Below, piece by piece: positions 12,392-23,661 of a stretch of DNA of 64,000 bases; the first letter of the stretch is position 1; the number at the start of each line of letters is the position of its first letter. The stretch spans positions 1 through 64,000 of the forward strand of contig CAIKMQ010000003.1 in assembly GCA_903828565.1 (NCBI GenBank). The letters run 5' to 3'. The translations under genes were made by a program, and so were the position numbers. The notes beneath the pieces are model-generated. The model worked only from the letters and a program-made list of their open reading frames with translations, was not told the origin of the DNA and made no database searches. The DNA is from an uncultured Leptolinea sp. GTDB lineage: Bacteria; Chloroflexota; Anaerolineae; Anaerolineales; Anaerolineaceae.

Positions 12392-13531
12392 TTGAGCATT
12401 TCCCTGGCTTCCGGTACCCCGGAGAACGATGAAGTTTCACTGCCGCTGGATACCGTCATTCAGGGAGATTGCCTGACAGAACTGGAAAAACTACCGGCGG
12501 AATCGGTGGATCTTGTGTTCGCCGATCCGCCTTATTATTTACAGCTGGCGCAAGAACTGTGGCGCCCGAACCAGACCCGAGTGGATGCAGTGGACGCGGA
12601 ATGGGACCGGTTTGGCAGTTTCAGCGACTATGATGCCTTTACCCGTGCCTGGTTGTCCGCCTGCCGCAGGGTATTAAAGAAGACCGGCGCTATCTGGGTC
12701 ATTGGCACATATCATAATATCTACCGCGTTGGCACCGCGCTGCAAGACCTGGGGTTCTGGATCTTGAACGATGTGGTTTGGACAAAGACCAACCCGATGC
12801 CTAATTTCCGCGGAGTACGCTTTACCAATGCTCATGAAACTTTGCTGTGGGCGCAAAAAGAGCGCGGAGCAGCCTATACATTCAATCATCACGCGATGAA
12901 AGCCCTAAACGAAGACCTGCAGATGCGCAGCGACTGGAATCTTTCGATCTGCACTGGTGGCGAACGGTTGAAGAAGGATGGGAAGAAGCTGCATCCCACC
13001 CAGAAACCGGAAGGCTTACTTTATCGCGTGCTGCTTTCCAGCACCAGCGTAGGGGATGTGGTGCTGGACCCGTTCTTTGGCACTGGCACCACCGGCGCGG
13101 TGGCGCGGCGGCTGCACCGGCATTTCATCGGCATCGAGAAAGACAGCGCGTATGTCGAAGCAGCCCGTGAACGCATCCATCAGGTGCAGCAAGTGGAGTT
13201 CAACCCGCCAATCTTCGTCACACCGGATCCGCGCCATGAAGCGCGCATCCCGTTTGGTACGCTGCTGGAGAATGACCTGCTGCGGCCGGGGCAGATCCTC
13301 TGGCTGGGTGAAAATGGACCCGCTGCCAGGGTACGTGCCGATGGCGCCCTGGAGTATAATGGAGAAACTGGCTCCATCCACCAGCTGGCGCGCAAGATCC
13401 GTCAGGCGCCGGTCAACGGCTGGGATGCCTGGTTTTACGAAGACCCACAATCCAAAAAACGTTTTCCCATCGACTCCCTGCGCCAACAGTTCAGGGAAAA
13501 ATCCAAACCCGAAGCGAGAGAAGAAGAATGA
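12392..13531 (+). CDS. CcrM-like adenine-N6 DNA methyltransferase (beta class)
   Basis: 379 aa, TTG start after AGGAACC. Catalytic motif DPPY near residue 47 precedes the target-recognition region, and the SAM-binding FxGxG motif is in DPFFGTGTTG near 227, giving beta-class order. Segments such as DAVDAEWDRF, TYHNIYRVG, LNDVVWTKTNPMPNF and HPTQKPE closely match the Caulobacter cell-cycle methyltransferase CcrM. The C-terminal part (RIPFGTLLE, GSIHQLARKI, NGWDAWFYE) matches its RAMA-type DNA-binding domain. GANTC specificity is therefore likely, though inferred. No restriction endonuclease is adjacent, so it looks solitary. It overlaps pepF by 4 nt. Confidence 0.93.
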   Translation: MSISLASGTPENDEVSLPLDTVIQGDCLTELEKLPAESVDLVFADPPYYLQLAQELWRPNQTRVDAVDAEWDRFGSFSDYDAFTRAWLSACRRVLKKTGAIWVIGTYHNIYRVGTALQDLGFWILNDVVWTKTNPMPNFRGVRFTNAHETLLWAQKERGAAYTFNHHAMKALNEDLQMRSDWNLSICTGGERLKKDGKKLHPTQKPEGLLYRVLLSSTSVGDVVLDPFFGTGTTGAVARRLHRHFIGIEKDSAYVEAARERIHQVQQVEFNPPIFVTPDPRHEARIPFGTLLENDLLRPGQILWLGENGPAARVRADGALEYNGETGSIHQLARKIRQAPVNGWDAWFYEDPQSKKRFPIDSLRQQFREKSKPEAREEE

Positions 13532-15309: not shown

Positions 15310-15369
15310 CCCGGTTAGCGATGCGTGCTTTCATCACTCCTTTCCGTTTCATTTATCAAGGTGCCAAGT

Positions 15370-16005
15370 ATGTATCTGGCAATTGAAGGCGTGATTGGTG
15401 TTGGCAAGACGACCCTGGCGCGCCGGCTGCAGCCGGAGTTCAACGCGGACCTGCTGCTGGAAGTCTTTGAGGAGAATCCCTTCCTTTCAGATTTCTACGC
15501 CGACCGCGCCAGGTATGCCTTCCAGACCCAGTTGTTCTTTCTGCTCAGCCGATACCGCCAGCAGCGCTCAGCTGTACCGGATATCCTGGCACTGGGTGCA
15601 GACCTGATCTCAGATTACACTTTTGAGAAAGACTCGCTCTTTGCGCGCATCAACCTGGCCGGCGATGAACTTGCCATGTACCGCCGGGTGCATGAAGCGT
15701 TGGCGGAAAAGATCCCGCTGCCCGGGCTGGTGGTATACCTGCGCGCATCCACAGATGTGCTGATGCAGCGCATCGCCAAACGTGACCGGCCTTACGAGCG
15801 CAACATGGAACGCGGGTATATTGACGAGCTCAACCGCGCATACGATGACTTCTTCTCCCGTACATCCGCATCCACCCTAATGATCGACACCAACGAACTG
15901 GATTTTGTGGCTAACCCGGAAGATCTGAAGAGCATCGAAAACCGTATCCGCCAGGCGCTGGAATTGATCCCCTTCCAGCCGGAACTACCCATGCAAGCCA
16001 GATAG
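15370..16005 (+). CDS. Deoxynucleoside kinase (dNK family)
   Basis: 211 aa from the ATG at 15370 (AAGGTG upstream); the 15-codon extension lacks a good site. P-loop GVIGVGKTT near residue 10, the ENPFLSDFY segment, and the lid-like arginines in IAKRDRPYERN mark the dCK/dGK/TK2-like fold. It probably salvages deoxyadenosine or deoxyguanosine with ATP. A second, divergent copy lies at 18589-19242. Confidence 0.9.
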   Translation: MYLAIEGVIGVGKTTLARRLQPEFNADLLLEVFEENPFLSDFYADRARYAFQTQLFFLLSRYRQQRSAVPDILALGADLISDYTFEKDSLFARINLAGDELAMYRRVHEALAEKIPLPGLVVYLRASTDVLMQRIAKRDRPYERNMERGYIDELNRAYDDFFSRTSASTLMIDTNELDFVANPEDLKSIENRIRQALELIPFQPELPMQAR

Positions 16006-16023: not shown

Positions 16024-17028
16024 ATGCGCATCAATCGTGATTTCCTGATCAAAACAGCCAGGGACCAGACCGCCCGGCGGCTGCGCGTGGAGAAAGATGT
16101 GTTGGCCGCGTATCTTTGCGGTTCTGTGCTGCTGGATGAACCGCTGCTGGGCGGGACGGCCGACATCGACATCGTCCTGATCCATGCCGGCACCCCGAAA
16201 ATTGTCCGGGAGATCGTCCGTCTGAATGAAGATATCCACCTGGACATCGCCCATCACAGCGAGTCGGTATATCAACAACCGCGCGCCCTGCGGGTGGACC
16301 CGTGGGTGGGTACAGCGGCGCAGAATCACCCGGTTCTGTTACATGATGTGCGTCACTGGTTCGAATTCACCCAGGCTTCCCTGGGTTCGCAATTCTATCG
16401 CTCGGACCATACCGCTGCCCGCGCCAGAGTGCTGCTGAACAAAGCCCGCGAGGCATGGGCTCAATTAAGTGAAAGCCGCGCCCCTTTTATAAAAAAATAT
16501 CAGCTCTTTGCATCTGCTGTGGAAAACGGCGCGAATGCTGCCGCCTGCCTGACAGGCACCCCGCTGTGCCGCCGGCGTTTTCTCAGTGAGCTGCCTGCCC
16601 GACTGGAAAATTCCAGTGCCGCCGGCCTGACTGCCGGCCTGATCAGCCTGCTGGGTTTCAACCAGCTGACAACGGAGAGCCTGCAGGCCATTCTGCCAGA
16701 CTGGGAACAGGCTTTCAACACCGTCAGCGCTCAGCCCGGCGCTCCGGCAGACCTGCAGCCTGTCCGGCTGAAATACTACCGTTCCGCTGCGCTGGAATAT
16801 TTGGAAAGAGGCGATGTGCCGGCTGCCGCCTACCCGTTGTTCACAACCTGGTGTAAAACCGCCGGCAGCATGCCAGCCACCAGCCCGGAATACCTTGCCT
16901 GGCTGAAAGCTGAAAAAGAGATCGGCCTGTCGAAAGAGACGCTGCCCGAAAAGATCGCCGCGCTGGATGCCTACCTGGATCACGTGGAAGAGGTGGTCGA
17001 CGCCTGGGATGAGAACGCAGGCGGGTAG
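16024..17028 (+). CDS. Nucleotidyltransferase-domain protein
   Basis: 334 aa. The N-terminal MNT-type motif is CGSVLLDEPLLGGTADIDIVLI (given in part here: CGS, then GTADIDIVL), with the two Asp residues that bind metal. The remaining roughly 220 residues are helical and unassigned. It follows the deoxynucleoside kinase by 18 bp. It may transfer a nucleotide to a protein, a small molecule or an aminoglycoside-like compound; substrate unknown. MNT proteins often pair with HEPN toxins, but no HEPN gene is seen beside it. Confidence 0.78.
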   Translation: MRINRDFLIKTARDQTARRLRVEKDVLAAYLCGSVLLDEPLLGGTADIDIVLIHAGTPKIVREIVRLNEDIHLDIAHHSESVYQQPRALRVDPWVGTAAQNHPVLLHDVRHWFEFTQASLGSQFYRSDHTAARARVLLNKAREAWAQLSESRAPFIKKYQLFASAVENGANAAACLTGTPLCRRRFLSELPARLENSSAAGLTAGLISLLGFNQLTTESLQAILPDWEQAFNTVSAQPGAPADLQPVRLKYYRSAALEYLERGDVPAAAYPLFTTWCKTAGSMPATSPEYLAWLKAEKEIGLSKETLPEKIAALDAYLDHVEEVVDAWDENAGG

Positions 17029-17109: not shown

Positions 17110-17412
17110 GTGTATATTCTCGCAAGCAAATCAAAAGTTCTTTATACAGGGGTTACAAATAACCTCAATCGCAGATTAATCGAGCATAAAAGTAAAATGG
17201 TTCAAGGATTCACATCGCTATACAACATAAATCAACTGGTTTATTATGAGGAATACCATAAACCAGAAGATGCGATATTGCGTGAAAAACAAATCAATGG
17301 TTGGGGACGAACAAAGAAGATCAAACTAATAGAAGAAGTAAATCCAACGTGGACTGATATCGTCATGGATGGTACTGAAAGTTTTTTTAGTACACGTGTA
17401 TCTGGTCAATGA
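17110..17412 (+). CDS. Small GIY-YIG endonuclease-like protein, N terminus interrupted
   Basis: 100 aa from GTG at 17110. It has the GIY-YIG core: VYILAS, LYTGVTNNL with the catalytic Arg in NRRLIEH, then YYEEY and the Glu in REKQINGW. Upstream, ATG at 17095 reads M-K-S-Y-stop-V-Y-I-L. Family members normally read YYVYIL here, so the TAA at 17107 appears to replace a second Tyr codon. Either GTG restarts translation or the gene is decaying. It is visibly more AT-rich than its neighbours and sits between inverted repeat arms, both signs of a mobile origin. Confidence 0.82.
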   Translation: MYILASKSKVLYTGVTNNLNRRLIEHKSKMVQGFTSLYNINQLVYYEEYHKPEDAILREKQINGWGRTKKIKLIEEVNPTWTDIVMDGTESFFSTRVSGQ

Positions 17413-17432
17413 ACATTTATTAATATTCGTCC

Positions 17433-17463
17433 AAGAGACCCTTCGCTTTGCTCAGGATGACAC
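17433..17463 (-). repeat. Right arm of the inverted repeat flanking the GIY-YIG gene
   Basis: Begins AAGAGACCCTTCGC and ends CAGGATGACAC. Its reverse complement matches the left arm at 17037-17064 in 23 of 28 positions. Outer ends read GTCATCC on both sides, the same geometry as the gene-less copies. Confidence 0.8.
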
Positions 17464-17674
17464 CGTATTCGGTGGTTATTCATCCTAAGGTTTATTCGCA
17501 TATATAGGATAAATTGAAGCTTCAGCTGGTAAAAAAGAAAAACATATTATGGACCAACGGTGAAGTATTTATTTTCAGAAATTTACATTCCTTGATGTTC
17601 TTGGGTGTCATTTGATCAATCTGCGGGTCAAAAATCATACCTTGATCCCTTTTGGTTTATCCTGTTTTCCACCC

Positions 17675-18240
17675 TGTGGATAACTCAATAAAACCTGTGA
17701 ATAACTAAGCCTTCAATGGTTTTTGTGAGTGATTAGGACTATTTACTAATAATCCGGATCGTCTGCCCCTCCAGTTATGGATACTTGGATAAAAGAATCA
17801 TTTCTTTTTCTATTTATCCAGTTAAATCCAGAGATACACCACAAGAAATCTGTTCTTCAGATGTGTCTGTTTGATCTTGTGTTGATCCTCCTTGTGGAAT
17901 AACCGGGTAGAGTCTTACTGAGTAATTGTGCTCTTATCCGCGGTTATCCACAGATATTCCCATTATGTGAAAATCTCATGTTTCACCCACAGGTTTTCCA
18001 CCCCAGGAATATTTAAGAATCCGGCTGCCGGTTACATAGGTAGTGTTTCTAACCAGGTAGTGTTGGAATCTGACCGTGGATCCAACCTATCTTGGATATT
18101 CCTATTCCCCTGAATATTTGGGTTTATCTCACCCGCAGGGTTATCCACTTATCCACAGCCTCTACTAAGAATACGATTACATATTCATTAATATAGATTA
18201 GGAATACTTGTAACCACCGGGGGAATTTTGTACAATGATT
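17675..18240. other. Candidate chromosomal replication origin (oriC): DnaA-box cluster and AT-rich zone
   Basis: The 0.9 kb non-coding interval 17413-18301 holds three perfect TTATCCACA boxes at 17675-17683 (minus), 17944-17952 (plus) and 18149-18157 (plus). Variants are TTATTCACA at 17696-17704 (minus), TTATCCACT at 18141-18149 (plus, in tandem with the third box) and TTATCCAGT at 17814-17822. After the tandem pair comes GCC, then CTACTA and an AT-rich run to about 18210. That resembles the double-box, GC spacer, DnaA-trio and unwinding-zone layout known from Bacillus. dnaN lies 4.3 kb away and parS sites about 10 kb away. dnaA is not in the window, and gene orientation is not biased away from this point. 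Confidence 0.78.
18208..18236 (+). promoter_or_regulatory. spoVS promoter
   Basis: TTGTAA at 18208-18213 and TACAAT at 18231-18236 are separated by 17 bp. The predicted leader is about 60 nt and carries GGGAGAAG before the ATG at 18302. The promoter abuts the candidate origin's AT-rich zone. Confidence 0.6.
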
Positions 18241-18301
18241 TTTGTAAGCACTCTGTCCAGTGATCGTTCAACAGAACCGGGAAGTTTCATGGGAGAAGAG
18301 T

Positions 18302-18592
18302 ATGGACATCATTAAGGTATCTGCCAATTCTCGTACCGCCTCGGTGGCAGGTGCGATTGCCGGGGTCATGCGCGAACATAAACACGCCGAAGTGCAGGCG
18401 ATTGGGGCTGGCGCGGTCAATCAGGCGGTCAAGGCGCTGGTTCTGGCCAGGGGATATTTGCAGGCGGACGCCATTATCATCATGTGCGTGCCTGAGTTTG
18501 TGGATGTTGAGATTGACGGCAAGGTACGGACTGCCATCAAATTAATCGTGGACCCGATACCGCAAGCCGAAAAAGATCAGCCGGAATCTTAG
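18302..18592 (+). CDS. spoVS: Stage V sporulation protein S (SpoVS) homologue
   Basis: 96 aa from the ATG at 18302 (GGGAGAAG upstream); the longer frame lacks a site. It shows the Alba-like SpoVS core: IKVSANSRTASVAGAIAG, then AIGAGAVNQAVKA, ARGYL and FVDVEIDGK. In Bacillus this small dimeric protein affects septation and sporulation. It also occurs in non-sporulating Deinococcus-Thermus and Chloroflexota, where its role is unclear. The Alba-like fold and its place beside a candidate oriC make a nucleic-acid-binding role attractive (inference). Its stop overlaps the convergent kinase gene by 4 nt. Confidence 0.95.
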   Translation: MDIIKVSANSRTASVAGAIAGVMREHKHAEVQAIGAGAVNQAVKALVLARGYLQADAIIIMCVPEFVDVEIDGKVRTAIKLIVDPIPQAEKDQPES

Positions 18593-19242
18593 CGCAATTC
18601 TTCAGCCGTAAAAGCAACGATCTCTTTACCTGAAAGCTTTTCCTGTAATTTTCGCATGATCAGGTCCAGATGCCCGGGCTTCTGGACGTAGTCCATGTCG
18701 TCCGCGGGAATGGTCAACACCGGGCAGAGCGTAAATTCGTGTATCCAATTCTCATACAGGTGATTGAGCTCTTTCAGGTATTCCTGCGAGATATTCTTTT
18801 CGTAATCTCTTCCACGTAGGCGAATACGCTGGATCAGAATCGGCACAGACGCTTTCAGGTAGATTACCAGATCAGGCGGGGGGAGAAATTCCAGCATGGT
18901 GTGGTAGAGAGCCGTGTAGGTATTGAAATCCCGTTCGTTGATCAAACCCTGCAGGTGCAAATTGCGGGCAAAGATCTCTGCGTCTTCGTAGACGCTGCGG
19001 TCCTGCAGTACGGTGTTTGGCATGCAGGCAATCTCGTGATGTGACCGCAGCCTGCGAGAAAGAAAGTACACCTGCGAGTGGAAGGCCCAGCCTTTCATAT
19101 CCTGGTAGAAATCAGATAAGTATGGGTTGGTGGCCTCCGGTTCAAAATATGGCAGCCAGTCCATGCGCTGTGAAAGCAGGCTGACAAGGGATGTCTTCCC
19201 CACACCGATATTTCCAGCAACGATCACATGTTTCTGGTTCAA
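18589..19242 (-). CDS. Deoxynucleoside kinase (dNK family), second copy
   Basis: 217 aa from a TTG start with AAGGAGG 8 nt upstream, overlapping the plsC stop (TTGA). P-loop GNIGVGKTS near residue 10, then TNPYLSDFYQD, and DRSVYED with the catalytic and nucleoside-binding residues. The lid segment is RIRLRGRDYEKN. It is clearly diverged from the copy at 15370. In bacteria with such pairs, one enzyme prefers dA/dC and the other dG (known for dAK/dGK); which is which cannot be told here. Confidence 0.9.
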   Translation of the reverse strand: MNQKHVIVAGNIGVGKTSLVSLLSQRMDWLPYFEPEATNPYLSDFYQDMKGWAFHSQVYFLSRRLRSHHEIACMPNTVLQDRSVYEDAEIFARNLHLQGLINERDFNTYTALYHTMLEFLPPPDLVIYLKASVPILIQRIRLRGRDYEKNISQEYLKELNHLYENWIHEFTLCPVLTIPADDMDYVQKPGHLDLIMRKLQEKLSGKEIVAFTAEELR

Positions 19243-19907
19243 GCGAGGCCCTCCTTGATCAATTCGCTGATTCGGGGATGCCCCCGGTAAATGCCGTGAT
19301 ATTTTTCGGGAATGAGCGCGGCGATCCGGCACATAACCTCATCCGTATTGCGCCGGGTGCTCTCCTCCCGCTCTGTACGGTCGATGGGCGGCAGTTGATA
19401 AGGTTTTCCAAACCTGGCACGGACGGTTGGCCGTTGAAAGTGAGCCAGCTTCGCCATGCAGTCTTCTGTGCCGGTGATCCCTACCGGGATGATTGGCACG
19501 GAGGTACGATCTGCCAGTAACACCGTGCCGCTCTTGGCTTCCAGCATCGTCCCCACCTGGCTGCGTGTTCCCTCCGGCGCAATGCCCAGCAACCCTCCGG
19601 CACGCAGATGCGCCAGCGCCGCGCGCATGGCAGTGTGATCCGCTATCTCCCGGTTGATCCAGATGGAATTGGTCGAGCGGACAATGAGGGAGAACAGCGG
19701 GTTCAGTCGGTATTTATCCGCCACCAGGGCGCACATGTCATCGCGATTGACGGCAATCAGCAGCAGGGGAGTATCCATCCGGCTGAGGTGGTTGGTGGTT
19801 AAAATACAACCGCCGCTGGCTGGTACATTTTCAGTTCCTTCCAATTCAACGTGCATCAGGCCGCAGAAAACGGCCTTTACCAACCGCTTGAGTATGTGTC
19901 TATCCAT
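19239..19907 (-). CDS. 1-acyl-sn-glycerol-3-phosphate acyltransferase (PlsC family)
   Basis: 222 aa. The catalytic HX4D motif is in NHLSRMD near residue 40, and the glycerophosphate-binding EGTRS motif is near residue 112, followed by VPIIPVGI. It makes phosphatidic acid at the membrane. It lies 14 nt downstream of the HerA-like gene and overlaps the kinase, so the three minus-strand genes are probably one operon. Confidence 0.92.
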   Translation of the reverse strand: MDRHILKRLVKAVFCGLMHVELEGTENVPASGGCILTTNHLSRMDTPLLLIAVNRDDMCALVADKYRLNPLFSLIVRSTNSIWINREIADHTAMRAALAHLRAGGLLGIAPEGTRSQVGTMLEAKSGTVLLADRTSVPIIPVGITGTEDCMAKLAHFQRPTVRARFGKPYQLPPIDRTEREESTRRNTDEVMCRIAALIPEKYHGIYRGHPRISELIKEGLA

Positions 19908-22536: not shown

Positions 22537-23661
22537 ATGAAGGTAACCGTCTCACAAGCGAACTTAGCACACGGCCTGGGTATTGTTACACACGCGGTGG
22601 CATCGCGTACCACGCTGGCGGTGCTTTCCAATGTTTTACTGGCAACAGATGAAGGCCGGTTGCGCCTTTCCGCGACGAACCTGGAAATGGGCATCACCTG
22701 CTGGATCGGTTGCAAGATCGAGGAGGAAGGCTCCATCACCATTCCCGCGCGTACACTGACCGACCTGGTGAACACCCTGCCTGTTGGCGAGGTACGGTTG
22801 ACGCTCAACCCGCGCACTCAGAGCATGGAGATCAAATGCGGTACCACCTCCAGCGAGATCAAGGGCATTGATTCGCAGGAATTTCCACCCATGCCGATCG
22901 CAGACCTGGATGGCGGGGTTGAACTGAACCTGGCTGACCTGAAAGAAATGATCACACAGGTCATTTTCGCGGCTTCGACAGATGAAGCCCGCCCTGTTTT
23001 GATGGGCGCTCAGATCAGTATTAACGACAATACGGTCTCCATGGCCGCAGCGGATGGCTTTCGCATCTCGGTACGCAGCGGGCAGTTGTCTCACTCAGTG
23101 AGCGAACCTGTTTCAATCATCGTCCCGGCGCGGGCACTGGCCGAGCTGGCAAGGGTCACCATGGATGGCAGCGATACCGTCCGTATGTCCATTCCTTCCG
23201 GCCGGGGGCAGGTGATCTTCTCCCTCAAGGATATGGAGATCGCATCGCAACTGATCGAAGGTAAATTCCCAGATTTCAACCAGATCATTCCCAAGGCTTT
23301 CAAAACCCGCACCGTCATCACCACTGCGCAATTCCTTAAAGCCTGTAAACAGGTGGAAGTCTTTGCGCGTGAAGGGGCTTATGTATCTCGCCTGAATCTG
23401 AAACCTGTGGAAGGCGGTCCCGGGGAAGTGGAGATGAACGCAGCCAATGAAGAGACCGGCTCATCCGATGTGGTACTGGATGCAACTATAGACGGCGCTC
23501 CGCTGCTGATCGCGTTCAATGTGCGCTACCTGCGGGAAGTGCTGGAAGTGATCAAGACACCGAATGTGGCGCTGGAAACCAGTGCCAACAATACGCCCGG
23601 TGTCATCCGCCCGGTCGGAGATGACACATTTACCCATGTCATCATGCCGATGCACCTGTAA
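22537..23661 (+). CDS. dnaN: DNA polymerase III subunit beta (sliding clamp)
   Basis: 374 aa, full length, three clamp domains. It starts MKVTVSQANLAHGL and ends VIMPMHL, the typical C terminus that forms the partner-binding pocket. It encircles DNA and tethers polymerase III. It stands alone without dnaA or recF, in contrast to the classic dnaA-dnaN-recF order. The ATG follows CGAGGG. A strong terminator follows, so it is monocistronic. Confidence 0.97.
   Translation: MKVTVSQANLAHGLGIVTHAVASRTTLAVLSNVLLATDEGRLRLSATNLEMGITCWIGCKIEEEGSITIPARTLTDLVNTLPVGEVRLTLNPRTQSMEIKCGTTSSEIKGIDSQEFPPMPIADLDGGVELNLADLKEMITQVIFAASTDEARPVLMGAQISINDNTVSMAAADGFRISVRSGQLSHSVSEPVSIIVPARALAELARVTMDGSDTVRMSIPSGRGQVIFSLKDMEIASQLIEGKFPDFNQIIPKAFKTRTVITTAQFLKACKQVEVFAREGAYVSRLNLKPVEGGPGEVEMNAANEETGSSDVVLDATIDGAPLLIAFNVRYLREVLEVIKTPNVALETSANNTPGVIRPVGDDTFTHVIMPMHL

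Follow-up and report, generated by a model that had tools for sequence, protein, structure and literature searches.

A probable chromosomal origin with a variant DnaA-trio module, parted from dnaA, in an Anaerolineaceae bacterium

The gap between dnaA and dnaN is the canonical position of a replication origin. In the basal unwinding system (BUS) of Bacillus subtilis, DnaA bound at two boxes nucleates an oligomer on the neighbouring trios (3'-GAT-5') and the duplex opens; the published rule calls for three or more consecutive trios with a central A (3'-NAN-5'), no further than 16 bp from a box or box pair (PMC8287927). Cytosine in place of the central adenine works in vitro in B. subtilis and beats G or T in vivo; it is tolerated because the amine group of the base contacts Asn187, and a broader choice of trios has been proposed for the DnaA of other bacteria (PMC10721633). 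Origins marked by dnaN without adjoining dnaA are described from Cyanothece and most of 68 cyanobacterial species (PMC4674748), and the oriC of Caulobacter contains GANTC sites in a genome that encodes CcrM; some Chloroflexi, too, have CcrM homologues that include the C-terminal domain (PMC3973325). For Anaerolineae or Chloroflexus, our literature search found no published origin study.

Here we analyse a stretch of 64,000 nucleotides (the window) from an Anaerolineaceae bacterium. Comparison of its sequence with those of relatives indicates that the gap upstream of spoVS is very probably the chromosomal replication origin (oriC).

The box array and its trio tract

A preliminary description had reported three perfect and at least two one-mismatch DnaA boxes inside 0.5 kb of non-coding, AT-rich DNA. 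All of them are where they had been placed, three perfect and two one-mismatch boxes within a span of 483 bp (Table 1). The gap has a GC content of 38.8% compared with 54.8% for the whole window, and its lowest-GC 50-mer begins at 18163, immediately past the tandem pair. Perfect boxes number 45 in the genome (2.22 Mb, 48 contigs), with no second triple within 0.5 kb anywhere else in these 2.22 Mb. A scan of box density, suggested earlier as a check, identified the array as the densest cluster of its 321-kb contig; it occupies the sole 500-bp segment of that contig with five boxes at one mismatch or less, about 0.002 such clusters being expected.

Table 1. Coordinates of the candidate origin and of neighbouring genes in the window.
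Feature	Position	Strand	Remarks
CcrM-type (GANTC) adenine methyltransferase gene	12392-13531	+	4-5 kb from origin; full-length match to C. crescentus CcrM, 441 bits
Deoxynucleoside kinase gene	15325-16005	+	left of origin
334-aa nucleotidyltransferase-fold protein gene	16024-17028	+	conserved left neighbour in Anaerolineaceae
GIY-YIG ORF	17110-17412		adjoins gap on left
Candidate oriC	17413-18301	.	non-coding AT-rich gap with DnaA-box array, upstream of spoVS
Perfect DnaA box TTATCCACA	17675-17683	-	last box of worn phylum-wide triad
One-mismatch DnaA box TTATTCACA	17696-17704	-	second triad box, 21-bp spacing kept
Perfect DnaA box TTATCCACA	17944-17952	+	middle box of array; exact match
Tandem DnaA-box pair TTATCCACTTATCCACA	18141-18157	+	overlap of one base; kept in congener G001
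One-mismatch box TTATCCACT	18141-18149	+	first of tandem pair; shares one base with next box
Perfect box TTATCCACA	18149-18157	+	second of tandem pair; exact match
Short G+C spacer GCCT	18158-18161	+	equivalent position in relatives
Putative DnaA-trio tract CTA CTA AGA ATA CGA TTA	18162-18179	+	six triplets; centre A or C on opposite, putatively DnaA-bound strand
Likely unwinding element	18163-18212	.	most AT-rich 50 bp of gap, 22% GC
spoVS	18302-18592	+	PF04232, 117.5 bits; conserved right neighbour
Second deoxynucleoside kinase gene	18589-19332	-	right of origin
dnaN	22537-23661	+	PF00712/PF02767/PF02768; same origin side as in dnaA-oriC-dnaN lineages

Behind the pair, GCC and CTACTA had been noted; both are present, but one T intervenes (GCC-T-CTACTA) and the tract is longer, comprising six trios. 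The pair ends at 18157 and the trios begin at 18162, inside the published 16-bp box-to-trio limit. The Bacillus-like layout recognised at the outset is real, with an A/C-centred trio variant. Like the B. subtilis BUS, the locus combines a co-oriented box pair, a short G+C spacer, in-phase trinucleotides and AT-rich DNA (PMC8287927, PMC10721633). In contrast to the BUS, the trio centre on the presumed bound strand is A or C and not A alone, dnaA is non-adjacent, and an extra antiparallel box triad lies about 300 bp off in origins of this type.

With two central-A trios the window falls short of the published three, which 19 of 46 distinct related origins reach. When A or C is counted at the centre, the window has six consecutive trios, and 36 of the 46 related origins reach three while 10 do not. 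A or C occupies the bound-strand centre of 91% of the in-phase trios 2-5 ending in A, compared with 52% in flanking DNA, and C alone accounts for 29% (identical sequences were removed from these counts, with no further correction for phylogeny). In 72 of 73 related origins the motif C(T/G)A follows the pair at a distance of at most 9 nt; shuffles give 16.7. Because the central-A count departs from the published rule, we describe the module as one that 'works like a BUS' and class it as a variant. The DnaA protein of the same genome, aligned to 8btg_A, is identical to that of B. subtilis at all the trio-contacting residues N187, I190, I193, R202 and E228 (B. subtilis numbering). The Chloroflexota origins look like natural cases of the predicted wider trio reading.

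By analogy with the B. subtilis BUS model, we infer the following course of initiation. DnaA would bind the box array. Starting at the tandem pair, a DnaA-ATP oligomer would grow across the G+C spacer and along one strand of the trio tract, capture bases one and two of every triplet and open the AT-rich DNA alongside, so that helicase loading and firing could follow. The distant antiparallel boxes at 17675 and 17696 probably contribute to assembly or regulation of the initiation complex, either through looping or by loading DnaA; this is the least certain step.

A phylum-wide layout and its dnaA neighbour

The most conserved element of the array is a triad of DnaA boxes with spacings of 20 and 21 bp. 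Of 61 order-level relatives, 48 contain its pattern, about once per genome, and none of the 61 contains the reversed pattern used as a control. When 84,980 species genomes were scanned, 75 of 80 among the matches listed were named Chloroflexota or subgroups thereof (Anaerolineae, Chloroflexales, Herpetosiphon and Ardenticatenales). Four matches from outside the phylum (L192, L202, L204 and L225) have no module at either 200 or 300 bp, and we regarded them as due to chance or misbinning. The distance from triad to tandem pair is about 190 bp in Chloroflexales and mostly 260-310 bp in Anaerolineae, and past the pair follow 2-6 nt, usually G+C-rich, and then in-phase triplets.

In the genus of the window the triad is incomplete. 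The window retains two of the three boxes, a third being not recognisable beside those at 17675 and 17696, and the spacing from triad to pair is stretched to 466 bp. The region can be aligned with that of the congener G001 only at 18141-18175 (88.6%; pair and trio) and at the start of spoVS, so that pair and trio are the only alignable part of the gap. Several relatives carry more than one triad: three perfect ones lie within 23 kb in G014 (C8:91225, 109130 and 114599; loci L111, G014:C8:90001-110000, and L112), and G005 and G058 have two each. Duplicated origins or DnaA-titration copies are possible explanations. A one-contig genome of the family (G018, 2.9 Mb) lacks both SpoVS and the triad, and its perfect boxes, only 13 in all, are scattered; its origin must use another layout or box.

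In the Chloroflexota loci L178 and L184, triad and module fill the dnaA-dnaN gap, with no adjoining spoVS. The triad begins 27-40 bp past the end of the dnaA match, box and trio come about 210 bp further along, and the start of dnaN is at +274 and +283, respectively. Elsewhere in the phylum the triad stands 29-33 bp (L268, L276, L281) or 79-330 bp (L105, L107, L110, L239, L290) behind dnaA. Given these positions, the array would be the phylum's dnaA-dnaN origin. The dnaA-oriC-dnaN origins of L178 and L184 share with the window the orientation of the triad, the module of DnaA box and trio, and the side on which dnaN lies. They differ from those of Anaerolineaceae in the adjacent dnaA and in the shorter distance from triad to module (about 210 versus about 300 bp), and the second box of their module is poorly kept.

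In Anaerolineaceae the gene of a 334-aa protein fills the slot of dnaA, and dnaN stays on the other side. In the window dnaN starts 4.4 kb away, close to the 4.3 kb first estimated. In Longilinea (G031, which we took as Longilinea arvoryzae KOME-1, family Anaerolineaceae) the array is 4 kb away from dnaN and about 1 Mb away from dnaA. The separation from dnaA that the preliminary description assumed for the window is borne out, dnaA residing on another contig of 10 kb, and proves to be shared by the entire family. We rejected an origin adjoining dnaA, since that locus holds no box cluster, only a single one-mismatch box. On comparative sequence evidence, dnaA and the origin are parted in Anaerolineaceae, and the layout is kept with dnaA adjacent in other Chloroflexota lineages; presumably it was in Anaerolineaceae that the dnaA neighbour was lost. 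Cyanobacterial origins are similar in being marked by dnaN and not by an adjoining dnaA, but they have a different box (TTTTCCACA) and box number, and the triad is not described there (PMC4674748).

Leftward, the gene order is PepF-type peptidase, deoxynucleoside kinase, 334-aa protein and GIY-YIG ORF up to the gap; rightward it is spoVS, deoxynucleoside kinase (-), acyltransferase (-), HerA-like ATPase (-), dnaN and then the gene of a PPDK_N protein. In the window and in many relatives, the origin thus has a deoxynucleoside kinase gene on either side. The gene of the 334-aa protein is locked beside the origin across Anaerolineaceae. No family match was found for this protein at cut-offs, and its AlphaFold model (pLDDT 94), with an invariant GS...DxD, resembles kanamycin/aminoglycoside nucleotidyltransferases; for both reasons, the idea that it is a helicase loader was dropped.

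GC skew and alternative readings

The cumulative GC skew of the window's contig reaches its minimum at position 16899. The first box is 0.8 kb away, but this is weak evidence because only 17 kb of contig lie to the left. In the Anaerolineaceae relative G011 (400 kb) the minimum at 211570 and the triad at 211952 are 0.4 kb apart, and in Longilinea (440 kb) the minimum at 664869 and the triad at 677669 are 13 kb apart; samples around the Longilinea chromosome place the opposite skew switch at 2.8-3.0 Mb. The congener G001 has no clear skew over 40 kb. G047 gives an ambiguous picture, with a local skew switch at the array but a lowest sampled point near 1.1 Mb, at a distance of about 0.6 Mb. We count this distant minimum against an oriC, together with the short left skew arm of the contig, the absence of clear skew in G001, the incomplete triad of the genus, the trio count that departs from the published rule and the gene orientation. 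The last of these had been conceded from the start, and indeed 83% of the coding sequence to the left is oriented towards the site. The proposal of an oriC is nonetheless supported by the array in the dnaA-dnaN gap of other Chloroflexota, by the skew minima in two relatives and by its occurrence about once per genome.

The array might instead be a DnaA-titration site or a DnaA-regulated promoter (datA/DARS-like, or controlling spoVS). Such sites contain DnaA boxes, and the array lies directly upstream of spoVS, an arrangement conserved in many relatives, where it often sits between this gene and that of the 334-aa protein. However, in L178 and L184 it occurs between dnaA and dnaN with no spoVS alongside, and in G021, G004 and G032 it is beside the nucleotidyltransferase gene, spoVS not being found in the stretch examined. 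Moreover, the unwinding module is retained, the skew minimum coincides with the array in G011, and the genome offers no other cluster as a candidate origin, all of which makes a titration or promoter site improbable. Two further readings, boxes clustered by chance in AT-rich intergenic sequence and the origin of a plasmid or phage that has integrated, for which the GIY-YIG ORF beside the gap might speak as a sign of local insertion, can practically be dismissed given the expectation of about 0.002 clusters, the phylum-wide conservation with conserved chromosomal neighbours, and the absence of plasmid Rep or partition family matches from all 10 neighbouring ORFs scanned (13.5-26.1 kb).

GANTC sites and implications of the oriC assignment

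Strong homologues of the CcrM-type methyltransferase (E <= 5e-95, a few being fragments) were found in 47 of 61 relatives, none of them above the curated CcrM cut-off. GANTC is scarce on the contig (2.0 per kb versus 3.8 expected; 2.4 per kb in other intergenic regions). At 23 origins it reaches 5.1 per kb, and in about 70 Chloroflexota origins 5.7 versus 3.0 per kb; in 22 of 70 origins a GANTC starts at the fifth trio. Origins in genomes without a full-length CcrM-type gene have 2.3-2.5 sites per kb and those with one 5.6-5.8 (p 0.009-0.025, from few genomes and with kinship ignored). This enrichment suggests methylation-dependent timing. The Caulobacter oriC likewise has GANTC sites and a CcrM homologue in the genome (PMC3973325), but it belongs to another phylum, and methylation and its timing at the present locus are putative. 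It is conceivable, though rather doubtful, that Chloroflexota origins form a distinct phylum-wide class of oriC, with an antiparallel triad at a near-fixed distance from a module of A/C trios that is further tuned by CcrM-type GANTC methylation. Both A and C are tolerated by B. subtilis DnaA as trio centres owing to their amine group. If true, this reading would mean methylation-timed origin opening outside Proteobacteria.

What appears to be new is a DnaA-dependent origin with a BUS-like A/C-trio module and a phylum-wide layout that, in Anaerolineaceae, lacks its dnaA neighbour. Predictors restricted to central-A trios would overlook over half of the related origins, that of the window included, and the Chloroflexota may offer a natural test of the amine-recognition model for DnaA-trio reading. 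The origin of Anaerolineaceae would be an example of a layout retained without its dnaA neighbour, and origins may become locatable from sequence in a large, mostly uncultured phylum, including drafts in which dnaA is no guide.
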